A DNA stretch of 64,000 bases from Clostridiales bacterium (GTDB lineage Bacteria > Bacillota > Clostridia > Peptostreptococcales > Acidaminobacteraceae). Each line of letters begins with the position of its first letter. Within the stretch, counting starts at the first letter, position 1. The DNA is taken from NCBI GenBank assembly GCA_016342415.1, contig JAEIOD010000002.1, positions 62,001-126,000 of the forward strand. Direction: 5' to 3'. A program made the position numbers and the translations under genes. Positions 42,320 to 47,284 of the stretch are shown piece after piece. The notes beneath the pieces were generated by a model. That model had not been told where the DNA came from, made no database searches, and worked only from the letters and a program-made list of their open reading frames with translations.

Positions 42320-42380
42320 TTTATATTCCTTTCTGTATCCTAAGTTTTCATGTATAATGACCTTAAGAATCGGAGGTCAT

Positions 42381-43241
42381 ATGAAACTAAATCCAAAATT
42401 GATCATACTAATAGGTGCCTTAGGTGTATCAACCTCACCTATTCTGATCAAATTATCATCATCACCAGCACTTACTATTGCATTTTATCGAATGCTGACA
42501 ACTATACTTTTATTAACCCCTTTTATCATATCAAAGAATAGAAAAGAAATAAAAGAATTATCAAGTAAGCAGATAAAAAAAATAGCCATCAGTGGTATTT
42601 TTTTAGGATTACATTTTTCGGCATGGATAATATCCTTAAAATATACAACTGTAGCAAGCGCCACTGTTCTTGTAAACACCAGTCCAATCATTTTACTCAT
42701 TATTACCTATTTTATCTTTAAAGAAAAATCTAAGCCTATTGAAATTATCGCAATCATAGCAGCCTTTGTTGGTAGTATTATATTAACTCTAGGAGATTTT
42801 AGCGGAGGTCAAAATGCTATATTAGGTGATATTTATGCATTAGCTGGAGCAGGTTTTGTTTCAGTCTATTTGTTAATCGGTAATAAAGTAAGACAAGATG
42901 TTTCTATGACATCATATACATACTTAACTTATACATTTGCTCTAATCACAATCTTTGTCAGCAATTTATTTGTCGGGCATGATCTGTTTGTAAAGGCACC
43001 AACAGAGTATTTACTCTTTTTAGCCATGGCAATCTTCCCAACACTTTTAGGACACAGCTTATTCAACTGGTCGTTAAAGTATGTCAGTGCTACCTTGGTT
43101 TCAATGGCGATATTAACAGAACCTATAATAGCTTCTATTTTTGCAATCTTTTTATTTCAAGAAATACCAACTTTAACACAAATCGTTGGGGCTACTATCA
43201 TCATAGCCTCTATCGGATTATACAATAATTCAAAAAAATAA
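42381..43241 (+). CDS. EamA family (DMT) transporter
   Basis: A 286-residue membrane protein with ten predicted helices in two EamA repeats of five helices each. Typical features are the N-terminal LIILIGALGVSTSPILIKL, the loop AFYRMLTTILLLTPF and, in the second half, the end-of-repeat ILTEPIIASIFAIFLFQEIPTLTQIVGATIIIASI. Such drug/metabolite transporters move small metabolites or nucleotide-sugars; the substrate is unknown. The start is ATG 42381 with GGAGG upstream. It is the only full-size plus-strand gene between 18 and 53 kb and ends in the first copy of the tandem repeat. Confidence 0.9.
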   Translation: MKLNPKLIILIGALGVSTSPILIKLSSSPALTIAFYRMLTTILLLTPFIISKNRKEIKELSSKQIKKIAISGIFLGLHFSAWIISLKYTTVASATVLVNTSPIILLIITYFIFKEKSKPIEIIAIIAAFVGSIILTLGDFSGGQNAILGDIYALAGAGFVSVYLLIGNKVRQDVSMTSYTYLTYTFALITIFVSNLFVGHDLFVKAPTEYLLFLAMAIFPTLLGHSLFNWSLKYVSATLVSMAILTEPIIASIFAIFLFQEIPTLTQIVGATIIIASIGLYNNSKK

Positions 43242-43412
43242 AAATCACCTAATCGAATTAAGTGATTTTCGCATAAAATATTAATAGGGGGGGATTGAAG
43301 GTTAAAAATCATTAAATTCATCTGTTTACTAATGATATTCATCTTCTATGACTACATATTAACATGCTTATGTGTACTTCATATGTTCTACATATAAAGA
43401 ATTTGTAAACTT
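43229..43412 (-). repeat. tandem unit 1 of 3 (candidate small RNA)
   Basis: One of three related units (G7-run positions 43287, 43478, 43661; period 191 then 183 bp). On the minus strand it contains, in order, a conserved ACATATGAAGTACACAT region, a stem-loop around ATCATTA and TAATGAT, a run of seven C, TATTAATATTTTAT and a terminator hairpin (AAAATCACTTAAT with ATTAGGTGATTTTT) followed by T-rich sequence. No open reading frame of note. It touches the stop of the EamA gene. Confidence 0.7.
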
Positions 43413-43418
43413 AATGGA

Positions 43419-43596
43419 AAGATCAAAAAATAAAAAATCACTCAATCAAATTAAGCGATTTCTATAAAATATTAATAGGGGGGGATTGAAGGTTAAAAAT
43501 CATTAAATTCATCAATTTACTAATGATATTCATCTTCTATGAACTTATGTTATCATGGTCATGTGTACTTCATATGTACTCTATTTTACAAATCTG
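43419..43596 (-). repeat. tandem unit 2 of 3 (candidate small RNA)
   Basis: Same layout as unit 1. The hairpin is compensated rather than identical: AAATCGCTTAA pairs with TTGAGTGATTT, keeping the stem by matching or wobble changes. The C7 run lies at 43478-43484. The 5' part matches unit 3 better than unit 1 (ATGACCATGATAACATAAG). Confidence 0.7.
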
Positions 43597-43601
43597 TCAT
43601 T

Positions 43602-43775
43602 TTTCAAAAAAATAAAAATCACCTAATCGAATTAAGTGATTTTCGCATAAAATATTAATAGGGGGGGATTGAAGGTTAAAATCATTAAATTATCTATTTA
43701 CTAATGATAATCATCTTCTATGAACTTATGTTATCATGGTCATGTGTACTTCATATGTACAAACTATTACAATAG
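43602..43775 (-). repeat. tandem unit 3 of 3 (candidate small RNA)
   Basis: Same layout. The terminator part is identical to unit 1 over about 75 bp, whereas the 5' part resembles unit 2. It is 15 bp after the addA stop, so its hairpin also ends addAB transcription. One A is missing in the central stem region compared with units 1 and 2. Confidence 0.7.
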
Positions 43776-43789
43776 TATTAACCTGATAC

Positions 43790-46700
43790 TTATGCCAAAT
43801 CAATTAGAATTCCCTTATCTTTATAAAAAGAATAGATATATGTTTCTTTTACGTTTTTACGTGTAATCCGCTCAATTGCTTCTTTATATAAGGCTAATTG
43901 TGCTTTATAACGTTCTACTAAAACTTCTTCATCTCCATAAAGATAATCTGTTTTGTAATCAATAAGAACTATCCCGTCTTCTTCTTCAAAATAACAATCT
44001 ATAATTCCTTGAATAAGAATTTCATCATCCCCTGTTATTTCAAGTTTCTTCTTAAGAACAAACGCTTTCTCTTTTTCTACTTCAGCTGCTTTTTTATATC
44101 TAATCCCTAAGTCCGACATAAAAAACTTATAAAACCTTTCAGGCTTCAATAATTTATAATCTTCTTCAGATAACAATTTAGTATTTCTAAACTCAAGCAA
44201 CTGACCTTCAATATTTCCATTGAATCTATCCAATTTTTGCATCACAAAGTGAGTCAGCGTACCAAGTTCTGCAGCTGTTTTAACTTGATCTTTCTTTAAG
44301 AAATTAGGTGTTGTATTTAGCGGATCAAAAACAGACCCTTTGTTTTGTTCTAATCTCTTCAATTCCGTTACACTGAATTTTGATGGTAATTCATGAATAC
44401 TGTAAGGATAAACATCATTAAACTTATCAGATAGTAATTGACTCATTTCATCATTTTCAAACTGAGCAATATTTTCTAAAATAGACTCTAACGACTGTTT
44501 TGGTGTTTTTTCAGAATTGTCATAAAGATTCTCCCTTGTTTGAAAATCGAGCGTCCAATGGGTTTGATGGTCATGTAAACCTAAATATGGTTTCTCAGCC
44601 AACGACCATATATTTTTGCTCACAGGATGTTTTGAAAGAATCATCATCAGCCAGTCCAAATACGATTGTCCTGACATCAAGTTATGTATCTGATCCCCTC
44701 TGCACCATTTTTTAGATTGACCTTCAATGTTCTTAACCGTTCCTACTAAAACCAACTTGTCTACTGCACGGGTCAATGCAACGTATAAAACACGCATTTC
44801 TTCAGCCAAACTCTCAAATCGAATTTGTCTCTTAATCAGTTTCTTGGGTAATGTATCAAATCCAACGCGGTGAATAGGGTCGATAAATTTTGGACCAATC
44901 CCAAGATTCTTATGTAGAAGCACCTCTTGATATGCATCTCTTAAATTAAATTTCTTGCCCATGCCTGCGACTATAACAACTGGAAACTCCAATCCTTTAC
45001 TCTTGTGAATACTCATGATTCTAACAACATTTTCATTTTCGCTAATAATCTTTGCAGTACCCATATCCGCATTCGATTTATGCATTTTGTCTACCGTTTC
45101 AACAAATTGATACAAACTAGAAAAATTCGCTTTTTCCATTTGTTCAGCCCTATCAATTAAGAGTCTTAGATTACCTTGTCTATTCTTCCCTCCAGGCATC
45201 GCACCAACATACTGGAAGTAGCCTGTTGTAATCATAATGTGCCAGATCAACTCATCCAGTCTCATATATCTTGATTTATGTTTCCAATCCTCCAACAAAC
45301 TACTGACACCAGTTACTTTTTCTTTTAATAAGCTATCTCCATCAAACTCAAAGAAGGACTCAAAGTAGTATTTTTTTGGATGTTGTATTCTTATTTCTAT
45401 TAAATCCTCTGTTGTAAAATTAAATATCGGCGACCTTAACACAGTCAATAACGGTAGATCCTGATAAGGATTGTCTATTAACCTAAGTAAATCAACAAAC
45501 ATCTTTATTTCGATTGCATCAAAATACCCACCTTGGAAATCAGCGAATAAAGGGATGCCTTCCTTTAAGAAAACATCATTAAATACAGGTGCCCAAGATG
45601 AAACTGCACGCATTAAAATAACCATGTGTTTGTATTCTAAATCGAAGTAACAATCCTTTTTCCTATCATAACTTTTTTTGCCGATTAACGCATTTATTTC
45701 TTTTACAACTGACCTCGCTTCAACTTCAGCAGATGTGAGTTCTTGTAATAAATCATCACCCTCGTAAGTCCCTTCTATGATGTTTACTTTGATACTGTCA
45801 TCCTCTATGGGTTTAAAATCAATACCCGTATAAAGTTTTGCATCATCATCGTAAACCATTTCACCAAAGGATTCAGACATCAATGACTCGAAAAGGAAGT
45901 TAATGCCTTCTAAAATCTCTTTTCTACTCCTAAAATTCTTCTTTAAGTCTATACGTCTATTAATTGAACCCGAATCTTTTGAATAACTATGATATTTCTC
46001 CATAAAAAGCGTCGGATCCGCTAATCTAAATTTGTAAATACTCTGTTTCACATCACCCACTAGAAAAACATTATTATCTCTTTTTATTCTGTTGATTAAA
46101 GTTTCTTGAACTAAATTAGAATCCTGATACTCATCTAAAAATATATAAGCATATTTGTTTCTATAATACGCTCTTACATCTTCATGCTCCAATGCTTTTA
46201 AAGCCAAATGTTCTAAATCGTTAAAATCAACTATGTTTTTCTCCATTTTTTCATAATTGAATCTATTTTGATACATCGATACCAGTCTGCAAAGTTCTGC
46301 CATCATCGGTTCTACGGCTTTAATATCTTCCAAGTAATCCTCTACAGACTTATGTTCAAACATACTCTTAATATCATCCAAAATATCTTTATATTGTTTT
46401 CTAAGAGCTTTTACTTCATCTGCTAATGTCATATCGACTTCTTCTTTTCTTGCTTTAGAAATGGATTTTAGTCTCATATGGGCAACTTGTCTTACACCAT
46501 CAACAAATTCATCCAGATTATCTAGTGAAGCAATCAAATTAGCTACATTCAGCATATCACTTTGAATCATCTCATCATATTCTTTTGGACCTTGTGGTGA
46601 TTCTACCAGAACAGATGCGGATTCTAAAATTTCAATTGCTGCTTCTAAATCAAATTTAATATTAGCTTTTAAAATTTCAATGTACTGTTCCGGCCTATGT

Positions 46701-47284
46701 AAATTATCCACGGTTTCTTCCAACCACTTGATAGGATCCGGCTGGCTCTGGATAAATTGATATGTACTGTTGATAAGATTTTGAATTTTTTTATCTTCTC
46801 TATTTTCGCTATAGGATTCAATAAAACAATGAAAACTACTTCGCGCTTCTTCATAAGCTTCTTCTAATATGATATCCATTACTTCTTTAGCCAATATATT
46901 AAGTTCTACAGTATCACCAACTTTAAATCCTGGATCAACCTCAATAAAATGAGCATTATTTCTCACTACACCTATACAAAAGGCATGTAACGTCATGATA
47001 CTCGCCTTCTGAATTTTATTGACTTGCTCACGCAAGAACGGATTGTCCTCATTTTCAAGTTGATCATAAAGAGCCGATACGATTCTCTCTCTCATTTCAC
47101 TGGCAGCGGCATTTGTAAACGTCACGATGAGCATTTCATCTATACCCACACGAGATTCAATAATCAATTGAATGATACGCTCAACCAACACAGCTGTTTT
47201 TCCTGAACCCGCTGCTGCCGACACCAATAAATTGGATTGTCTCGTTTCTATTGCAGCTTGTTGATCACTTGTCCACTTTGGCAT
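43790..47284 (-). CDS. addA: ATP-dependent helicase/nuclease subunit A
   Basis: Recombination helicase-nuclease large subunit, 1164 residues, the Gram-positive counterpart of RecB. UvrD-type motifs in order: Walker A (SAAAGSGKTAVLVERI), motif II FLDEYQDSN, motif III VGDVKQSIYKFR, motif IV-V VRIMSIHKSKGLEFP and motif VI LYVALTRAVDKL. The C-terminal RecB-like nuclease has LIDYKTDYL. With AddB it resects double-strand breaks and degrades linear DNA until a Chi site. The start has AAAGGG upstream and lies 20 bp inside addB. Confidence 0.96.
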   Translation of the reverse strand: MPKWTSDQQAAIETRQSNLLVSAAAGSGKTAVLVERIIQLIIESRVGIDEMLIVTFTNAAASEMRERIVSALYDQLENEDNPFLREQVNKIQKASIMTLHAFCIGVVRNNAHFIEVDPGFKVGDTVELNILAKEVMDIILEEAYEEARSSFHCFIESYSENREDKKIQNLINSTYQFIQSQPDPIKWLEETVDNLHRPEQYIEILKANIKFDLEAAIEILESASVLVESPQGPKEYDEMIQSDMLNVANLIASLDNLDEFVDGVRQVAHMRLKSISKARKEEVDMTLADEVKALRKQYKDILDDIKSMFEHKSVEDYLEDIKAVEPMMAELCRLVSMYQNRFNYEKMEKNIVDFNDLEHLALKALEHEDVRAYYRNKYAYIFLDEYQDSNLVQETLINRIKRDNNVFLVGDVKQSIYKFRLADPTLFMEKYHSYSKDSGSINRRIDLKKNFRSRKEILEGINFLFESLMSESFGEMVYDDDAKLYTGIDFKPIEDDSIKVNIIEGTYEGDDLLQELTSAEVEARSVVKEINALIGKKSYDRKKDCYFDLEYKHMVILMRAVSSWAPVFNDVFLKEGIPLFADFQGGYFDAIEIKMFVDLLRLIDNPYQDLPLLTVLRSPIFNFTTEDLIEIRIQHPKKYYFESFFEFDGDSLLKEKVTGVSSLLEDWKHKSRYMRLDELIWHIMITTGYFQYVGAMPGGKNRQGNLRLLIDRAEQMEKANFSSLYQFVETVDKMHKSNADMGTAKIISENENVVRIMSIHKSKGLEFPVVIVAGMGKKFNLRDAYQEVLLHKNLGIGPKFIDPIHRVGFDTLPKKLIKRQIRFESLAEEMRVLYVALTRAVDKLVLVGTVKNIEGQSKKWCRGDQIHNLMSGQSYLDWLMMILSKHPVSKNIWSLAEKPYLGLHDHQTHWTLDFQTRENLYDNSEKTPKQSLESILENIAQFENDEMSQLLSDKFNDVYPYSIHELPSKFSVTELKRLEQNKGSVFDPLNTTPNFLKKDQVKTAAELGTLTHFVMQKLDRFNGNIEGQLLEFRNTKLLSEEDYKLLKPERFYKFFMSDLGIRYKKAAEVEKEKAFVLKKKLEITGDDEILIQGIIDCYFEEEDGIVLIDYKTDYLYGDEEVLVERYKAQLALYKEAIERITRKNVKETYIYSFYKDKGILIDLA

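Follow-up and report, generated by a model that had tools for sequence, protein, structure and literature searches.

Three tandem units between an EamA-family gene and addA are candidate small RNA genes with a conserved C tract that is predicted to be unpaired

The UCCC motif of LhrC, RsaE, FsrA and RNAIII is a proven site of pairing with Shine-Dalgarno sequences (PMC4132741). LhrC of Listeria monocytogenes is encoded in multiple copies (LhrC1-5), is under the control of a two-component system and folds into two stem-loops with a single-stranded C-rich stretch, its C-rich motif blocking the Shine-Dalgarno site (PMC4132741). Streptococcal csRNAs are likewise encoded by several similar genes per genome, which have been searched for by means of the layout TTTAAG-N5-TTTAAG, ten bases and then TATAAT (PMC3091779), and each of them forms two stem-loops, between which an anti-Shine-Dalgarno region is left unpaired (PMC8186281).

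The locus described here lies within a stretch of 64 kb (the window), where three similar units are arranged in tandem on the minus strand between an EamA-family gene and addA. Like the csRNA genes, the units are several to a genome and carry two hexamers separated by five bases and followed, after 10 nt, by a -10 element; their RNAs are predicted to form two stem-loops separated by an unpaired region. The same multicopy organization, with two stem-loops and a single-stranded C-rich stretch, is shared with LhrC1-5. However, the box of the units reads GTACAT/GTACAC, unlike the CiaR site NTTAAG-N5-TTTAAG, and because of this difference we do not claim that the units belong to the csRNA family; further, in contrast to the csRNAs, they carry a C6-C7 tract and show no sequence match to Rfam families. 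LhrC differs from the units, with their one C6-C7 tract, in that UCCC occurs at three sites in each RNA, of which two are located in loops, and no sequence similarity of the array to LhrC was detected in the Rfam scan. An unpaired C-rich motif is also common to RsaE/RoxS, FsrA and IsrR, where it acts on ribosome binding sites. These sRNAs are usually single-copy and controlled differently, and the array matched no family in the Rfam scan. None of the matches of the array in Rfam 15 was above the gathering cut-off, those obtained at E values of up to 10 being at chance level. The sole Rfam match above the gathering score in the window was a T-box leader (RF00230; 23156-23394, minus strand; 108.1 bits).

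The start-to-start distances between the units are 191 and 183 bp (79-nt family), and all three show the same order of 5' box, hairpin, bare C7 tract and terminator hairpin. An earlier note on this DNA had described a tandem triplicate with these periods and a C7 run in each unit, and both points were borne out by the copy search and by the runs themselves, which start at 43287, 43478 and 43661 and are the only G7/C7 runs within the 64 kb. Regarding the span that it gave to the array, 43229-43775, the start stands, while the end is better put at 43760, since the conserved box in unit 3 extends no further. The sequence ACATATGAAGTACACAT is present exactly in 3/3 units. At the 3' side, unit 3 has the same sequence as unit 1 across 79 nt (100% identity) and unit 2 differs, while at the 5' side it is unit 2 that unit 3 matches; such mosaic identity would be expected from recombination between tandem copies. 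The EamA-family transporter gene (42357..43241, plus strand; Pfam EamA, 8.8e-38) converges on the array and is a conserved neighbour, as it also lies beside the element in G001 and G002 (see below). Upstream of the array, on the same strand as the units, lies an ORF (43790..47284, minus strand) which, by sequence recognition, we take to be addA, a conserved neighbour with relatives in 41/41 genomes of the family.

The layout common to the units consists of the box, 8 bases, TAnnAT, 6-8 bases, AGAAGA, a hairpin closed by GAAG/CTTC, AATCCCCCCC, TATTAATATTTTAT(GCGA), an A/U-rich hairpin and a T-rich sequence. In unit 3 (minus strand, as are all features given here), the promoter box GTACATATGAAGTACACAT (GTACAT-N5-GTACAC) lies at 43742..43760 and is followed, 10 nt past the second hexamer, by the putative -10 element TAACAT (43728..43733). 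The predicted sRNA, running from AGAAGATG to the T run, would be about 114 nt long (43606..43719), if its start lies 6-8 nt after the -10 element. Its predicted fold comprises a 5' hairpin with a GAAG/CTTC base and an inner TCATTA/TAATGA stem (43671..43718), which was also included in the pair test described below, an unpaired C7 tract (43661..43667) and a terminator stem-loop (43616..43643, with the T run at 43606-43620), the pairs of which were tested as well. Unit 2 also has the promoter box GTACATATGAAGTACACAT (43561..43579), a putative TAACAT -10 element (43547..43552), a predicted sRNA of about 114 nt (43425..43538, by its fold and a putative start), an unpaired C7 tract (43478..43484) and a terminator stem-loop (43435..43461) whose sequence is unlike that of units 1 and 3 yet pairs, both in the predicted fold and in the pair test. 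In unit 1, the box GAACATATGAAGTACACAT (43370..43388) has one change in the first hexamer (GAACAT...), the putative -10 element reads TAATAT (43356..43361), and the predicted sRNA of about 116 nt (43232..43347, with its start placed in the same way) contains an unpaired C7 tract (43287..43293) and a predicted terminator stem-loop (43242..43269) directly past the end of the convergent EamA gene.

The two hexamers of the box are 11 bp apart, and the full pattern GTACAT-N5-GTACAC-N10-TAnnAT has the same spacing between box and -10 element in 9/9 copies from two species. A search of three genomes for box and -10 element together, with 0-1 mismatch, returned ten matches, nine of which were these elements and one another site. 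When the box was sought at other genes of the three genomes with up to three mismatches, the counts were not clearly above those of a reversed-pattern control, and at or below them overall; the regulator may thus serve these promoters almost alone. ACATATGAAGTACACAT had been regarded as a conserved 5' region of the RNA. Most likely, it belongs to the promoter DNA and lies outside the RNA, given that it is followed by a conserved TAnnAT from which it is separated by bases that are not conserved. Typically, OmpR/PhoB-type activators act at 11-bp direct repeats that precede a -10 element with no good -35. The evidence that the units may be under two-component control consists of this repeat and of its distance from the -10 element.

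With regard to RNA structure, the folds predicted for the units of the window consist of two hairpins, one at the 5' end and one at the terminator, and leave the C tract single-stranded; z values relative to shuffled sequences were -3.2 to -3.6, and terminators folded alone gave -5.3 and -5.6. This two-hairpin topology of minimum free energy with a bare C tract was predicted in 8/8 RNAs tested (103-116 nt, T tails included; z -2.5 to -4.0). All of the 16 base pairs tested hold in every copy (156/156 pair cells), one of them changing on both sides, six on one side and none being broken. The covariation score was 0.190, a value reached in 1/500 shuffles, compared to 0.156 in shuffled alignments, and slid alignments gave at most 0.097; model, alignment and structure all derive from the same sequences. 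The two-sided change, G-C/A-U at columns 145/154, is between species. Covariation is therefore present but thin, and weak by count, since a two-sided change is seen in one pair alone, the 5' stem being invariant across copies. The previous observation that the terminator stem of unit 2 differs and still pairs was confirmed, its changes relative to units 1 and 3 being one-sided (A-U to G-U, U-G to U-A and U-A to U-G). A simple terminator scan found none in the array, because it demands stems with three G-C pairs, and those of the units are A/U-rich.

Three structures with a hairpin and a T run in a convergent intergenic site, the first with a stem that begins at the EamA stop codon, could also be read as a cis element only, that is, as repeated terminators between EamA and addA. 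We regard this as very improbable, as a terminator does not need a 19-bp box, a -10 element, a 5' hairpin or a C tract conserved at 90-100%, and copies of the element in G001 sit between co-directional genes and beside a divergent gene.

Conservation was compared between the units of the window and the copies in G001, the AddA proteins of the two genomes being 70% identical. Identity was 93% in the box and 71% in the -10 hexamer, of which TA..AT is kept in all copies, compared to 43% in the spacer and 51% in the discriminator. Within the RNA, the arms of the 5' stem were 100% identical and the hairpin interior 58%, with 29% gaps; AAT and the C tract reached 90%, the loss consisting of one C (the C6/C7 gap), the next 18 nt past the C tract 94%, and the terminator 75%, with every pair holding. 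The upstream flank was not alignable between species. This uneven conservation fits a promoter followed by a structured RNA in which a single-stranded site is conserved. No conserved reading frame was found on either strand: the short frames (for example MKYT on the minus and MIFIFYELML on the plus strand) lose their start codon or frame in relatives, in agreement with the earlier note, according to which no coding frame explains the conservation.

A blastn search against 60 relatives revealed six copies, at 70-76% identity, in a second species of the same genus (G001) and a fragment in a third (G002). Together with the three copies of the window genome (G000), this makes nine full copies in two species, all with the same order of parts, and a truncated tenth copy in the third. 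In G001, a single copy (on contig C17) occupies the orthologous EamA/addA interval, while three are on C64 and two, in tandem, on C111; the neighbours on C64 and C111 are a GH65 gene, a GGDEF gene, a Uma2-type gene and a methyltransferase gene. At C64:69179 the gene on the 5' side is divergent, so this copy cannot use read-through and would need its own promoter. As for G002, the C tract is where the contig carrying EamA starts (L128, L156), and the contig carrying addA stops within the box; these assembly breaks on both sides suggest that the site may hold more than one copy. The ends of G002:C45:1 and G002:C26:1 (L199, L156) lie in the same element, the EamA/addA site being broken exactly at the repeat.

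The dispersal in G001 (six copies at several loci, with tandem pairs) and the mosaic identity between units 1 and 3 at the 3' side and units 2 and 3 at the 5' side would also agree with a mobile or recombining repeat, MITE- or REP-like, which carries a hairpin and a terminator and has no RNA function. A scattered MITE lacking structural conservation had been put forward as the finding that would speak against RNA genes; the scatter was indeed seen in G001, whereas the structure is kept. Such a repeat is improbable in our judgment: no terminal inverted repeats are seen in the aligned copies, the same EamA/addA site is occupied in G000 and G001 and both contig ends at this site in G002 carry the element, the uneven conservation matches promoter, stem and C tract, and the window genome has only three copies, with none found in phages or plasmids. 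Viral contigs with a 17-nt exact match gave no score against a covariance model of the element.

This covariance model was built from ten sequences and employed in a search across Clostridia, as the earlier note had proposed. The nine full copies keep the box, fold, C tract and terminator, and the rest diverges. No convincing homologue outside the genus was found among 41 genomes of the family, 394 of the order and 391 of the class, samples which partly overlap; as the wide searches scored seven candidates per genome under strict filters, distant relatives may be missed. Candidates L165, L168, L211-L214 and L360 (E 2e-4 to 3 per genome) were judged on inspection to be due to chance, because they match mainly at the terminator or A/T-rich parts and have neither C tract nor box. 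A scan of genome contigs for a 15-nt pattern returned mostly chance matches, the pattern being too short, and no related element was present downstream of addA when 11 genomes from other genera were inspected. In the samples searched, the family does not extend beyond one genus, represented by three genomes.

As candidate targets, AGGGGGG-N3-10-ATG sites were counted in the three genomes and exceeded the reversed-pattern control (31 vs. 12, 36 vs. 21 and 12 vs. 3), an excess to be expected of genuine ribosome binding sites even if no sRNA acts on them. GPH-type sugar symporters accounted for 4/23 of the AGGGGGG genes examined compared to 0/88 background ORFs (Fisher p 0.0015), the family having been chosen after viewing the gene list and start codons having been assigned by a simple rule; these genes (L245 and L288 in G000, L253 and L307 in G001) are not orthologous by identity, and we treat the symporters as a post hoc lead, the foremost candidates being those at G000:C5:37779 and C49:202641. 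The only G6 site conserved in all three species is that of an OppD-type ABC transporter gene with a conserved start region, AGGGGGGTTGAATAATG (L276 in G000, L302 in G001 and L252 in G002). Its conservation is not a sign of sRNA pairing, as the site overlaps the apparent end of the upstream coding sequence. AGGGGGG ribosome binding sites are also present in two orthologues that are 77% identical, L278 (G000:C31) and L321 (G002:C146), presumably HD-GYP-like, by eye. Beyond the G run, no clear extended pairing was seen at the candidate sites, the duplex energies, calculated with neither accessibility nor a null, carrying no weight.

The lack of extended pairing, the multiple copies and a conserved single-stranded block (the C tract plus TATTAATATTTTATGCGA, 94%) that is longer than a simple seed are also what might be seen if the C tract titrated a protein, for example a poly-C-binding protein of KH type, as CsrA-binding RNAs do with CsrA, and paired with no mRNA. 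Titrating RNAs usually carry repeated motifs within one RNA, whereas the motif of the units is not repeated, and titration seems to us improbable here. Further, C-rich tracts of sRNAs in low-GC Gram-positive bacteria are proven Shine-Dalgarno pairing sites (PMC4132741).

Judged on comparative evidence (the copies, the conservation pattern, the predicted fold in every tested copy, the box geometry and the orthologous site), the array is best explained, and with good support, as a tandem of sRNA genes in which the C tract is left unpaired, as proposed in the earlier note, and transcription, regulator, targets and blocking mechanism are what we infer from it. We consider it probable that the three units are csRNA/LhrC-like sRNA genes, that a response regulator drives them and that their C tract acts by pairing with G-rich Shine-Dalgarno sequences. 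A response regulator of the OmpR/PhoB type would bind the box and activate a promoter that lacks a good -35, and a minus-strand RNA of about 100-115 nt would start near AGAAGA and fold into the 5' hairpin and the terminator hairpin, with CAAUCCCCCC(C)UAUUAAUAUUUUAUGCGA unpaired between them. Pairing of the C tract with the G-rich Shine-Dalgarno sequence of target mRNAs would then block ribosome loading, and the several copies would raise the dose, such that the array would answer strongly to one signal.

The family, which judging by its sequence is new and genus-restricted, and by its predicted design is a multicopy sRNA of the csRNA/LhrC kind, has apparently not been described before; it belongs to a low-GC genus, and its promoters follow the csRNA design in their layout. 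The differences in copies between sister species (one vs. three at the same site, plus dispersed ones) offer a natural case for studying the causes of sRNA gene multiplication. A more far-reaching and rather doubtful idea is that these genus-specific sRNAs, under a dedicated regulator that controls almost nothing else, set the translation of GPH and peptide transporters via the C6-C7 tract; if true, regulation of the csRNA type would have arisen anew outside the streptococci, with a different box and an unrelated RNA.
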